A stretch of DNA of 32,999 nt from an uncultured cyanobacterium. GTDB lineage: Bacteria; Cyanobacteriota; Cyanobacteriia; Cyanobacteriales; Geitlerinemataceae. Made by a program: the position numbers and the translations under genes. Below are positions 14,018 to 32,999 of this stretch, in pieces. The stretch covers positions 1 to 32,999 of the forward strand of contig CALCCD010000054.1 of NCBI GenBank assembly GCA_937899645.1, given 5' to 3'. Under the pieces are notes generated by a model. The model saw only the letters and a list, made by a program, of their open reading frames with translations, was not told the origin of the DNA and searched no databases. Position 1 is the first letter of the stretch. The number at the start of each line of letters is the position of its first letter.

Positions 14018-14716
14018 ATGAAATCGCTCTTCCAAGCCGCCGTACTCACCAGCGCTGCCACCCTAGCCCTCGCTCCCATCGCTCATGCTGGTAGCTTCGG
14101 TGTCGATGACGGCATCAGCTTCGACAGTCAAACGACCCTCGAGTTCACCTTTGAAGAGGCGCGCGGTAGCTACCAATCCTCTCTCGGCATCTACTCTGTT
14201 ATCGACGGCGAAGCGACCCTCGAAGAAGTTCTGTTCGCCGAAACGATGGGCTCGGACGTCGGTAGCTCCAACTACTTGAGCACCTGCGGCGTTGATGGTG
14301 TGAGCGCGATCGAGAACTGCACCGCACAGTTCACCTTCGAGGCGGGCGTCGATTACGCCCTCGGCTTGATCTTGAACAACACCAACGTTCACTCGGGCGT
14401 CAAGTACTCGACCACGGACTTGAACGACGGTTCGCAGCAAGCCATCTTCGACGAAAACGAATTCAGCTTCGCGGCTGGCGATACAGTTGCATTCGGAAAC
14501 CCCGGCGACTACACCGACGACGTCTTCGCTGCCCTGAACGATGTCGTTTGGATTGGTTTCGACGATGGCGGCAACCAAAACGACGTTGACTTCCAAGATT
14601 TCGTGGTTTCGACCTCGATCGTCGATTCGGAGTCCGTTCCGGAACCGGCTTCGGCAATCGCGCTGCTGGCTGTTGGCGCTGCATCGCTGAAACTAGGCCG
14701 CCGCAACAACGCCTAG
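14018..14716 (+). CDS. PEP-CTERM sorted secreted protein, DUF4114-like
   Basis: This 232-residue precursor has a signal peptide (MKSLFQAAVLTSAATLALAP, cleavage after IAHA at about 24) and an acidic beta-rich body. The C-terminal sorting tag is VPEPASAIALLAVGAASLKL followed by GRRNNA, i.e. a PEP motif, a hydrophobic helix and basic residues. Such tags are recognised by exosortase, which in other bacteria links proteins to the cell surface or extracellular matrix. The segment WIGFDDGGNQNDVDFQDFVV resembles the calcium-type acidic motif of DUF4114 domains, which is tentative. The body is Cys-poor, with a pair of Cys at about 90 and 101 that could form a disulfide. No exosortase gene is in the window. 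A strong terminator lies about 125 nt downstream. The ligand or role is unknown. Confidence 0.88.
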   Translation: MKSLFQAAVLTSAATLALAPIAHAGSFGVDDGISFDSQTTLEFTFEEARGSYQSSLGIYSVIDGEATLEEVLFAETMGSDVGSSNYLSTCGVDGVSAIENCTAQFTFEAGVDYALGLILNNTNVHSGVKYSTTDLNDGSQQAIFDENEFSFAAGDTVAFGNPGDYTDDVFAALNDVVWIGFDDGGNQNDVDFQDFVVSTSIVDSESVPEPASAIALLAVGAASLKLGRRNNA

Positions 14717-14840: not shown

Positions 14841-14878
14841 AAAAAGCCCCGCATCGGTTGCAGTGCGGGGCTTTTTTT
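14841..14878. terminator. Bidirectional rho-independent terminator
   Basis: AAAAAGCCCCGCA and TGCGGGGCTTTTTT form a strong stem with a 12-nt loop, A-rich on the left and T-rich on the right. It can therefore terminate the PEP-CTERM gene on the plus strand, and also transcripts arriving from the aminotransferase on the minus strand. Confidence 0.9.
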
Positions 14879-14970: not shown

Positions 14971-15150
14971 TCGGAGCACTCCAAGAATACATTTTCCGGA
15001 AGTCGCCAATGAAGGCTGAGCTTGTCGTTCGCATAGCGTCGGCTTGCCGATCGCCTGGTGCTGCTGCACGATTCGCTTCGCGAATGCGGCGCTAACGACA
15101 CTCGGTGCTCGAATCCCGAACGGTGAGCGTTTATTTCCGGAAGACTCTTA
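14971..15150 (-). repeat. Dispersed MITE-like element, copy A
   Basis: Read on the minus strand, this segment aligns along its whole length with 20391-20581. Shared blocks, in the same order, are GGAAATAAA, GGATTCGAGCAC, ATCGGCAAGCCGACGCT, GCGAACGACAAGCTCAG and CTTCATTGGCGA. The ends are imperfect inverted repeats (minus-strand left end AAGAGTCTTCC, opposite end GGAGCACTCC). It encodes no protein. Its end at 15148-15150 provides the TAA stop of the aminotransferase gene. The exact borders are estimated by comparing the two copies. The element type is inferred from size, inverted ends and lack of coding content. Confidence 0.72.
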
Positions 15151-16302
15151 GCTCGCCTTAAACACGGCGGCGGCGGCGGCAATCCCCGCACCCGGAGTTG
15201 CGCCGTCGTGACCGAGTTCGACGAGCACCGACTCCAGCGCTCCGATCGCCGTCAGCACGTCGCGATCGGCGACAAAGCCTAGATGGCCGATGCGGAAGAT
15301 CTGGCCTTTCAGATGGTCTTGGCCACCGGCAAGGGCAATGTCGAACTTTTTATTCATTCGCGCGCGTACGTCTTCGGCTTTGACAGTTGCAGGTGCGACT
15401 GCCGTAATCGCGGGGCTGGCGCATTCGTCCGCACCGAACAGCGGCAGGCCCATCGCCTTAACGGCGGCGCGGGTGGCGCGCTTGAGGCGATCGTGGCGCG
15501 CGAAGATTGCCTCTAGCCCTTCGTCCTGCATCATTTGTAAGGCGGCGTGGAGCGCGAAATAGAGGTTGATCGGTGGCGTAAACGGCGTGCTGTTCTTGGC
15601 AGCGGTCTTGCGGTATTTGCCCAAATCGAAGTAAAAGCGGGGCAGCGTTGCTCGTTCGTAGGCGTCCCAAGCCTTGTTGCTGACGGCGACGAAACCGAGA
15701 CCGGGGGGAATCATATACCCCTTCTGGGAGCCGGAGCCGACCACGTCGAGACCCAGCTCGTCCACTTTCAGGTCGTACGCGCCAAGGCTGGTGACGGCAT
15801 CGACGATGCTGAGGGCTTTGCTGTGGGCCTTGATGTGAGCAACGATCGCCCCGAGGTCGTTGAGGACGCCGGTGGAGGTTTCGCTGTGGGTCAAGATAAC
15901 GGCGGCAATTTCCTTGTTGGTGTCGGCTTCGAGGGCGGCACGGAAGGCTTCGGGATCGAGCGGCTTGCCCCACTCAGCATCGATAACCTCGACGTTGAGG
16001 CCGTACGCTTGTGCTACCTGCACCCAGCGATCGCCAAATTTGCCGTTGGAGCCGACCAAAACGCGATCGCCCGCGCTCAGGAAGTTGATAATGCCTGCTT
16101 CCATCGCGCCCGTACCGCTGGCCGCCAGGGTCAGCACGTCGTTTTTCGTCTGGTGCAGCCACTGCAATCCGGCGTTGACTTCGCCGATCAGGGCGCTAAA
16201 CTCGCCGGTGCGGTGGCCGATCGGGTGCTTGCCCAGCGCCGTCAGCGCCCGTTCGGGAACCGGGGTCGGCCCCGGGATCATCAGCATTGCTTTATCGTCC
16301 AT
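15148..16302 (-). CDS. Alanine-glyoxylate / serine-type class V aminotransferase
   Basis: This 384-residue PLP enzyme belongs to the class V aminotransferases of the AGXT/SGAT type. MLMIPGPTPVPERALTAL at the N-terminus, GHRTGEFSALI, the PLP-binding SGTGAMEAG and GSQKGYMIPPGLGF with the Schiff-base Lys194 are all characteristic. ILTHSETSTGVLNDL and the Asp in LSIVDAVTSLGAYDL hold the cofactor ring. In cyanobacteria these enzymes transaminate glyoxylate in photorespiration; older annotations sometimes call them soluble hydrogenase small subunit. Which amino donor is used cannot be told. The ATG at 16302 has AGGAG about 10 nt upstream. The stop codon lies at the very end of a dispersed repeat, so the last residues (FKAS) may have been set by insertion of that element. 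Confidence 0.92.
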   Translation of the reverse strand: MDDKAMLMIPGPTPVPERALTALGKHPIGHRTGEFSALIGEVNAGLQWLHQTKNDVLTLAASGTGAMEAGIINFLSAGDRVLVGSNGKFGDRWVQVAQAYGLNVEVIDAEWGKPLDPEAFRAALEADTNKEIAAVILTHSETSTGVLNDLGAIVAHIKAHSKALSIVDAVTSLGAYDLKVDELGLDVVGSGSQKGYMIPPGLGFVAVSNKAWDAYERATLPRFYFDLGKYRKTAAKNSTPFTPPINLYFALHAALQMMQDEGLEAIFARHDRLKRATRAAVKAMGLPLFGADECASPAITAVAPATVKAEDVRARMNKKFDIALAGGQDHLKGQIFRIGHLGFVADRDVLTAIGALESVLVELGHDGATPGAGIAAAAAVFKAS

Positions 16303-18951: not shown

Positions 18952-18954
18952 GTG
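18938..18954 (+). promoter_or_regulatory. mgtE ribosome binding site and GTG start
   Basis: AGGAGAGG at 18938-18945 lies 6 nt before GTG at 18952-18954. This strong site fixes the non-ATG start of mgtE. Confidence 0.75.
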
Positions 18955-20385
18955 GGCGATCGCAACTCAGAATCAGCCGTCCAGAGCCTGTCGAGCCGCC
19001 GCGAGCTGCGCGAGCTGGTGCGATCGCAGCTACAAATGTTGCTCGAGCAGAATAACCTCCAGGGTGCGAAGACCCTGCTCGTGCCCGTGCAGCCCGCCGA
19101 TATCGCCGAGGCGATCGAAGGCTTGCCCGAAATCATGCACGCACTGGCCTTCCGGCTCCTCTCGAAGGACGAAGCCACCGAAGTTTACGAAAATCTCGAC
19201 TCCAGCGTGCAGCTCTCGCTCGTGGAGGACTTCAAGCGTCAGGAGGTGGTTGATATCGTCGAGCAGATGTCGCCTGACGATCGCGCCCGCCTGTTCGACG
19301 AGCTGCCCGCCACCGTGGTGCGCCGCCTGCTGCGCCATATGAGCCCCTCCGAGCGCCGCGCCACCTCGCTGCTGCTGGGCTACGAGTCCGACACCGCCGG
19401 TCGAATTATGACGCCGGAGTATATCTCGCTCAAGGAGCACTTCACCGTTACTCAGTCTCTGGAGCGGATTCGCAGCCTCGCGCTCGTCACCGAAACGGTG
19501 TACTCGCTCTACGTCACCGACGCCGCCCGCCAGCTCACCGGCATCCTATCGCTGCGGGATCTGGTGGTCGCCCAGCCCGATCGCACCGTCGGCGAGCTGA
19601 TGACCCGCGACGCCATCTTTATTCACACCAGCACCGACCAAGAGGAAGTCGCCCGGACGATCCAGCGCTACGACCTGCTGGCCGTGCCGGTGGTCGATAG
19701 CGAGCAGCGCCTGGTGGGCATCGTCACCGTAGATGACGTGATCGACATTATCGAGCGCGAAACCACCGAGGATATTTACGCGCTGGGCGGGCTGCAAACC
19801 GATGGCGACAACTACTTTCAGACAAACCTATTCAACGTGGCGCGGCAGCGGGTGGTGTGGCTGCTAGTGTTGCTGTTCACCAATACGCTGACCAGCGGCG
19901 TGATTCGCGCCAACGAGGACATCCTCGAGCGGGTGGTGAGTTTGGCGATGTTTATTCCGCTGCTGATCGGCACGGGCGGCAACGTCGGCGCGCAGTCTTC
20001 GACGGTGACGATTCGTGGGCTGAATATGGACTCGATCGGGGTCGATCGCGCCGGGTGGGTGATCCGTCGCGAGGCGATCGCCGGGGCGCTGCTGGGCACG
20101 ATGCTCGGCGCGATGGTGACGGTGGGAGCGTATTTTCTTCAAGGGGATCTGGTGGTGGCGATCGCAGTGGGGGTGAGTTTGATCGCCATCTCAGTGCTGG
20201 CCTCGGTGTCGGGCTCGGCGCTGCCGTTTTTGTTCCAGTCGCTGGGCTTCGATCCGGCGCTGATGTCGGCTCCGTTTATTACCACCGCCGTGGACGTGTT
20301 GGGGGTGCTGATTTATTTCGGGGTGGCGCGGCTGCTGTTGCAGGTGGTGCAGACGGCGATGGCGATCGGCTGGGTCGGTGTTTAG
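18952..20385 (+). CDS. mgtE: Magnesium transporter MgtE
   Basis: This 477-residue protein follows the MgtE layout. The cytosolic N domain (about 20-150, with FRLLSKDEATEVYENL and LPATVVRRLLRHMSPSERR) comes first. Two CBS domains follow (about 155-275), including MTPEYISLKEHFTVTQSLER and VDSEQRLVGIVTVDDVIDII. A connecting helix ends in QTNLFNVARQRVVWLLVLL, and five membrane helices then carry PLLIGTGGNVGAQSSTVTIR, the pore signature. Family members are homodimeric Mg2+ channels gated by Mg2+ binding to the N and CBS domains. Length and order are normal. The start is GTG with a strong Shine-Dalgarno. The stop codon falls inside an 11-nt sequence (GTTTAGCGACG) that is repeated beyond the dispersed element just downstream. 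Confidence 0.96.
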   Translation: MGDRNSESAVQSLSSRRELRELVRSQLQMLLEQNNLQGAKTLLVPVQPADIAEAIEGLPEIMHALAFRLLSKDEATEVYENLDSSVQLSLVEDFKRQEVVDIVEQMSPDDRARLFDELPATVVRRLLRHMSPSERRATSLLLGYESDTAGRIMTPEYISLKEHFTVTQSLERIRSLALVTETVYSLYVTDAARQLTGILSLRDLVVAQPDRTVGELMTRDAIFIHTSTDQEEVARTIQRYDLLAVPVVDSEQRLVGIVTVDDVIDIIERETTEDIYALGGLQTDGDNYFQTNLFNVARQRVVWLLVLLFTNTLTSGVIRANEDILERVVSLAMFIPLLIGTGGNVGAQSSTVTIRGLNMDSIGVDRAGWVIRREAIAGALLGTMLGAMVTVGAYFLQGDLVVAIAVGVSLIAISVLASVSGSALPFLFQSLGFDPALMSAPFITTAVDVLGVLIYFGVARLLLQVVQTAMAIGWVGV

Positions 20386-20390
20386 CGACG

Positions 20391-20581
20391 TTTAGAGTAC
20401 TCCACGGAAATAAATGCCCAGTATCCAGGATTCGAGCACTGAGCTTGTCGTTGGCGTAGCCTTCGCTTTGCGAATAGTGCGTCACACCCAGGCTATCGGC
20501 AAGCCGACGCTTCGCGAACGACAAGCTCAGTCTTCATTGGCGAACTCTGGACAGATACATTTGTGGACTGCTCTTAGCAAC
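20391..20581 (+). repeat. Dispersed MITE-like element, copy B
   Basis: This segment matches copy A (14971-15150, opposite strand) over its full length. Ends are imperfect inverted repeats (TAGAGTACTCCAC at the left; TAAGAGCAGTCCAC when the right end is read on the minus strand). Inside, ACTGAGCTTGTCGTT (20438-20452) and AACGACAAGCTCAGT (20517-20531) form a perfect 15-bp inverted repeat around 64 nt. The element is flanked by an 11-nt direct repeat GTTTAGCGACG (20380-20390 and 20582-20592), consistent with a target duplication. No protein is encoded. The mobilising transposase is not in the window. Confidence 0.75.
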
Positions 20582-32792: not shown

Positions 32793-32999
32793 CTAGCTGT
32801 AGAGTGCACCATCACCCGCAGTGAGAAAGTCATCACTGCTGGCACCTACCAAGCTATCGAGGCTGCTGTTGCCCACCAGGGTATCGACATTGTCGATCGC
32901 CAAGGTGTCGAGGCTATTGCTGCCTACCAAGCTATCGAGGCTGTTGCCCACCAAGCTGTCGAGGCTGCTGCTGCCCACCAGGGTGTCGAAATTGCCGAT
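32793..32999 (-). CDS. Repetitive acidic protein, C-terminal part (RTX-like?), truncated by the window edge
   Basis: A minus-strand frame is open from the right edge to TAG at 32793-32795, giving 68 residues. It consists of 8-9-residue units with the core LDSLVGNSS or VDTLVGNS repeated about six times, then ends DDFLTAGDGALYS. Asp, Ser, Asn and Gly dominate and hydrophobic residues recur at fixed positions, as in parallel beta-helix proteins. The last part (DDFLTAGDG) recalls the calcium-binding hemolysin repeat GGxGxDxL, but the rest does not keep its double glycine. The 24- or 27-nt DNA repeats are near-identical, suggesting recent duplication. The N-terminus and total length lie outside the window, so secretion and function cannot be judged. 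It converges on uvrA. Confidence 0.6.
   Translation of the reverse strand: MGNFDTLVGSSSLDSLVGNSLDSLVGSNSLDTLAIDNVDTLVGNSSLDSLVGASSDDFLTAGDGALYS

Follow-up and report, generated by a model that had tools for sequence, protein, structure and literature searches.

Two related non-coding segments in the genome of an uncultured cyanobacterium raise the question of whether they are copies of a miniature inverted-repeat transposable element (MITE), as a sequence-only reading had proposed, or a duplicated stretch of intergenic DNA. The window, by which is meant the whole stretch of DNA analysed (32,999 nucleotides), comprises all of contig C54 in a draft genome of 4.55 Mb and 134 contigs. A repeat search of the window finds inverted arms at 14995-15100 and 20446-20551 (106 nt, 81%) and at 15101-15139 and 20405-20443 (39 nt, 79%), and among the unrelated inverted pairs of the window none is longer than 44 nt (73%). 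When 20391-20581 was compared with the genome by BLAST, 14974-15139 was matched on the minus strand (78%, E 1.6e-31), one of at least 44 genome matches, a figure that includes the query itself and split pieces and comes with 40 of 134 candidates scored. The claim of two related segments in opposite orientation is upheld by these alignments, and both had been placed correctly to within 8 bases.

Delimited by the ends of the wider family to which both belong, here called family A, copy 1 occupies 14974-15147 on the minus strand (174 bp) and copy 2 occupies 20395-20573 on the plus strand (179 bp), directly after mgtE (18952-20385; TIGR00400). Both ends of copy 2 are recognisable and it still has its target duplication, TTA at 20392-20394 and again at 20574-20576; between these, all on the plus strand, lie a left terminal region GAGTACTCCACGGAAATAAATGCCCA (20395-20420), a core TTCGAGCACTGAGC...CAAGCTCAGTCTTC (20431-20535) common to two other element types, and a right terminal region TACATTTGTGGACTGCTC (20556-20573). 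By eye this core carries an insert of about 26 nt in its left arm and another in its right arm (the long/long type). Copy 1, likewise of the long-core type and 78% similar to copy 2, is decayed: its 5' end has small deletions, its 3' end GTGCTC is intact, and its target duplication has been lost, with TAA on one side and CGA on the other. The TAA (15148-15150, minus strand) fits the TNA target of the family and is also the stop codon of a class-V aminotransferase ORF (15148-16302, minus strand). As had been proposed, the element ends are imperfect inverted repeats, GAGTACTCCACGGAAATAAATG against GAGCAGTCCACAAATG at the 3' end read on the opposite strand, and coding content is absent, in that neither copy encloses an ORF of at least 80 aa; two ORFs of that size, at 19857-20459 (+) and 20279-20524 (-), overlap copy 2 from outside. 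Folded as single-stranded DNA, 20391-20581 (copy 2) is strong (z = -4.65) and copy 1 is not (z = -0.78). Both window copies are of a longer, older and more diverged type of family A.

An ORF at 14018-14716, with a VPEPASAIALLAVGAASL tail and weak PEP-CTERM matches (PF07589 at 19.9 bits, below the cut-off of 20.7), is followed near 14845-14878, just before copy 1, by a hairpin that by eye resembles a terminator. Elsewhere in the window, the minus strand at 677-863, antisense to psbC (263-1651; TIGR01153), matches the Rfam model of IsrR, the antisense RNA of isiA, at 152 bits; this perhaps reflects just the likeness of isiA to psbC and no true IsrR gene. Repeats with a 51-nt period occupy 32827-32999, at the contig end.

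The 20-nt left (5') end of A is found at 50 sites in the genome with up to 3 mismatches, 30 of them exact, and the reversed pattern at none; one of the 50, on C85, is by eye not a family member. From the fetched loci 44 two-ended copies were extracted, by a procedure that misses decayed ones such as copy 1: 29 are exactly 132 bp long and 15 measure 138-198 bp. The whole-genome search for further copies that had been suggested thus returned dozens, and a pair standing alone in the genome is not what is observed. The terminal inverted repeats of A are GAGTACTCCACGGAAATAAATGTCCAG and GAGYACTCCACAAATATATTTGTCCAG. Identical triplets flank 26 of the 29 132-bp copies but are kept in just 4 of the 15 longer ones, and the target deduced from the 132-bp set is C-TNA-G, the element being preceded by C (20/29), T (28/29) and A (29/29) and followed by T (29/29), A (27/29) and G (17/29). 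These 29 copies differ from one another at a mean of 7.1 positions (about 5%) and at most at 16; 14 of the 406 pairs are identical, and one sequence is present four times. At least six contigs (C53, C70, C71, C80, C100 and C111) end within A copies, as expected for such repeats. Because 29 copies of 132 bp lie only about 5% apart and 26 of them have the same TNA triplet on both sides at C-TNA-G targets, family A is a fairly recently mobile, non-autonomous element of the IS type, that is, a MITE as had been read from the window. The 132-bp subfamily represents the more recent spread and the window copies the older type. As some 132-bp copies are identical, a comparison of strains could reveal live movement.

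The proposal that the elements are mobilised in trans fares less evenly: the ends and the duplications fit it, and a transposase with matching ends was not found. Profile searches of the same genome gave one match to PF13340, four to PF01609 and none to PF13359, with A ends beside none of them. Five transposase loci scanned for A ends, one of which (L065) ends at its contig edge, yielded one unpaired site with 2 mismatches (L062); the sole PF13340 match (C123) appears by eye to have ends GAAAGCGTTTG flanked by TA. The 12-base A end TNAGAGYRCTCC occurs at 69 sites in the genome (39+30), against 3 (2+1) for the reversed control, and apart from those on C94 and C108 the sites are by eye members of the family; no transposase-bearing element with A ends was found in the 134 contigs of the draft. 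Hence the suggested comparison of the A ends with insertion sequences of the same genome found no match. A lone PF01797 (IS200/RAYT-type) transposase gene does lie at C103:98968-99318 (L076), amid repeats with GTAGGGTGTGTT.

Duplication lengths mark the subgroups of IS5 and also ISAs1, and the 3-bp TNA duplication of A fits an IS1031-type derivative of the IS5 family, of which we take such a duplication to be a trait. A published listing of IS1031- and ISL2-group elements, as far as it was available, gives no duplications. A transposase acting in trans may therefore be envisaged that would recognise the ends GAGTACTCCAC... and ...GTGGAGTGCTC and move or copy the element; insertion at C-TNA-G would duplicate the TNA, and the duplication suggests that the enzyme was IS5-like. 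Its parent IS, with GAGTACTCC ends, may now be absent or unassembled. A resident transposase with matching ends is treated here as a supporting and not a defining criterion for a MITE, since the available part of PMC3119063 describes MITEs in genomes that have no functional transposase for them.

Among the collections searched, the ends of A are confined to this genome. The exact 22-base A end has no occurrence in genome_contigs, a collection from which the source genome itself may be missing, and A ends gave no match at E 1e-5 in the plasmid collection. The 3' end of A is found at 23+18 sites in its own genome; single sites with 2-3 mismatches in 9 of 385 other cyanobacterial genomes were set aside as chance, the reversed control giving 3 sites. 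The 132-bp element was matched in 3 of 58 relatives, and among the matches listed only its middle (query 31-97) was involved. One of the stretches from relatives (L071, relative G002) shares at least 2359 bases without a difference with a contig (L203) of Coleofasciculaceae cyanobacterium RL_1_1, which implies that RL_1_1, or a near twin, belongs to the genus of the window.

The middle of A is a paired palindrome; two further MITE shells of this genome and of relatives, B and C, contain it too. This core consists of two inverted palindromic repeats around a loop, spans 57-144 bp in complete elements and has the same position in all three shells; its start is found 82 times in this genome, against once in a reversed control. 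Shell B has CAGGGCAAACGCATA ends (in full CAGGGCAAACGCATACTAATTTTC...GGGAGTATGCGTTTGCCCTG) and duplications of about 10 bp; in 14 of 19 elements the two sides agree at 8 or more of 10 positions, and in 6 they agree fully. Shell C has TAGACCTCTTGCA ends (in full TAGACCTCTTGCATGAATCG...GTGCAAGAGGTCTA) and ANT duplications, the flanking triplets being identical in 13 of 18 elements, in every case as ANT. At up to 2 mismatches, B ends number 68, 70 and 96 in three genomes of the genus, with 6, 5 and 9 in the controls. These ends and duplications point to transposases for B and C other than that of A.

The 74 cores counted in this genome comprise 39 with A ends on both sides (A/A), 10 B/B, 9 C/C, one A/C, 11 one-sided and four without a recognised shell, of which L131 and perhaps L174 resemble by eye decayed C and B shells. 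They remain from 84 instances after ten were dropped, the grounds for each being assigned by reading: L136 and L179 repeat a place already counted, and in eight others (L042, L045, L054, L157, L158, L168, L175 and the second place in L006) no core end was recognised. A random control at the same settings made no shell call on either side at 1931 window positions, and one with a wider right stretch made 0 of 500 on the left and 3 of 500 on the right. The loop too is common to B and C cores, GTGCGGCCACTTTTCGCGA..ACACCCAGG. Core arms are either short or carry the insert of about 26 nt, in combinations that vary within one shell; the short and long labels are approximate, as L156 and L164, labelled long/long, are short/long by eye. 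Stem partners match in 21 of 46 cores outside A, where 18.6 are expected and 19% of shuffles reach 21, so that conserved hairpin pairing outside A is not significant.

The core was found in 42 stretches from named genomes: 25 in RL_1_1, 4 in PH2015_06S_54_30, 2 in RI_101 and 11 in others, several of these last probably by chance. RL_1_1 and PH2015_06S_54_30 again carry it within B and C shells. Separately, palindromes without a shell, TTCGAGCACTGAGCG(A/T)AGTCGAAGTGC, occur in a Chitinophagaceae MAG and in Cyanobacteria bacterium RI_101 (L220, L210, L218), so that the half-core is not limited to a single phylum.

At L065 an end, CAGGGTAAACGCATC, that differs from B ends at 2 of 15 bases lies beside a fragment of an ISAs1 transposase (NF033564, 140.8 bits, cut-off 70), which suggests the kind of parent from which shell B came. 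Ends CAGGGTAAACGCATCTAAAAAGGGGG were seen at L065 (C73), L243 (C97), L246 (C132) and L247 (C37), three of them near contig edges and one adjoining an ISAs1 transposase fragment; these sites probably belong to an IS present in several copies, where the assembly breaks off. Another MITE, the fourth here and 287 bp long, has ends CAGGGTAAACGCATCTAA...TTAGATGCGTTCACCCTG; it is identical in all five fetched copies (L241, L242, L244, L245, L248), each with a 10-bp duplication and none with the core, and is very recent.

Whether the core follows its shell was studied in the complete B/B and C/C elements, 34 out of 35 being used because one C element of this genome with a poorer core end was omitted. 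Left arms are far more alike within a shell than between shells (0.821 vs 0.661), as are right arms (0.753 vs 0.635), differences reached in 0 of 5000 shuffles for either, and between B and C the likeness of the arms drops to the shuffled level. Cores, by contrast with shuffled cores (0.680 identity), are almost as similar between the two shells (0.887) as within them (0.893), a difference by shell that is small but not nil (104 of 5000 shuffles reach it). Genome set predicts core likeness at least as well as shell does (6 of 5000 shuffles), although the related set mixes genomes and the effects on the core are small; the arms are not tied to genome set (2134 and 887 of 5000 shuffles) and follow the shell alone. 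The cores of A cluster by shell (0.882 within, 0.855 between, 13 of 5000 shuffles; long/long set of this genome) and have a shorter loop of their own, which implies that A probably took up the core once and does not exchange it freely. Two mixed-end elements have the appearance of products of recombination or nesting by way of the core: L157, in which a C left arm is joined to a B right end via a truncated core, and L177, which has A on the left and C on the right, with a B left arm immediately beyond the element. They are two single cases, which nested insertions or deletions could also produce.

Taken together, these data are best accounted for by an ordinary MITE family whose core has been exchanged between, or captured by, shells that different transposases would have moved, a reading held with good though not complete confidence. 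Most likely the core moved from shell to shell through homologous recombination or gene conversion among its copies, or else each shell captured it; A, as it is found in this genome only, probably acquired it latest, along with the shortened loop. A stronger version, in which the core is a transferable cassette moved by at least three transposition systems, switching end-pairs by recombination and forming the unit of selection while the ends are disposable vehicles, is rather unlikely; were it true, the A shell, not found in any other genome, would be a vehicle of recent date.

The most serious competitor, which falls well short of even odds, holds that the core is itself a mobile palindromic repeat, resembling the small dispersed repeats of cyanobacteria or a doublet of the REPIN type, and that three MITEs which already existed each received it by a separate insertion. 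Half-cores and bare palindromes do lie outside shells (L048, L168, L069, L072, and in other taxa L210, L218, L220), the inserts in the core arms are present or absent in varying combinations, as nested small repeats would give, and four of the 74 cores lack a recognised shell, even if by eye L131, and perhaps also L174, could be decayed remnants of a C and a B shell. Yet the core boundaries are similar in all three shells, with no duplication at the boundary spotted by eye, and a RAYT/REPIN origin of the core was rejected, as the single PF01797 gene of the genome is flanked by other repeats. A palindrome that arose by chance or convergence in three unrelated shells is a highly improbable explanation of the shared core: CTGAGC..GCTCAG palindromes are short and are found alone elsewhere, but 82 core starts against one in the reversed control contradict a chance palindrome, and B and C cores have a common loop and a between-shell identity of 0.88-0.89 against 0.68 when shuffled. 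Segmental duplication of an intergenic region without any mobile element would suit the window itself, which holds two copies only, but is practically negligible in the face of dozens of copies at different sites with precise ends and target duplications.

Exchange or capture of the core, the preferred reading, bears on how MITEs are understood. Family A is a new family of a known kind, and it is the shared core that merits further study. A MITE is usually viewed as the remnant of one parent transposon; a core common to three end types with different duplication lengths shows that what lies inside a MITE can have a history apart from that of its ends. This poses a testable question, namely whether the cores of MITEs are of importance to transposition or to the host, or whether recombination spreads them as passive filler.

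Some features of the core recall repeats already known from cyanobacteria. Small dispersed repeats, palindromes of 21-27 nt reportedly described by Elhai et al. in 2008, are said to lie sometimes inside minitransposons; the inserts of about 26 nt in the core arms resemble them in size, the one respect in which they are compared. Nezha of cyanobacteria belongs to the same general kind, being short, non-coding and multicopy with inverted ends, the respects in which it is compared here. Bacterial MITEs as presented in the accessible parts of PMC10969869 and PMC3733652 are also short, non-coding and multicopy, with terminal inverted repeats, short duplications and no transposase, but one core in three end types, as seen here, is not mentioned there. 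The MITEs of Haloquadratum walsbyi, according to the available part of PMC3119063, have only terminal bases in common with their transposon and are, like A, mobile without a functional resident transposase; they are archaeal, and that part mentions no core common to different end types. TIMEs, derived from Tn3 elements, are likewise non-autonomous and are described in the available part of PMC4133298 as forming mosaic transposons; they are of the Tn3 type, with 5-6-bp duplications and composite forms, and that text does not speak of an internal core being swapped from one end type to another. The available parts of PMC3733652, PMC10969869, PMC4133298, PMC3196728, PMC3119063 and PMC3116915, and the listings of literature searches, the main cyanobacterial repeat paper aside, contain no account of a single core occurring in MITEs with several kinds of ends. 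A structural parallel to the core itself is offered by REPINs (PMC3116915) and GTAG/CGTC REPs (PMC3733652), which in the accessible text similarly consist of two inverted palindromic repeats forming a hairpin. REPINs are tied there to RAYT genes (PMC3116915), and no RAYT gene carrying the core was found here, the sole PF01797 gene (L076) having GTAGGGTGTGTT repeats and no core; unlike REPINs, the core described here lies within inverted-repeat shells flanked by target duplications.
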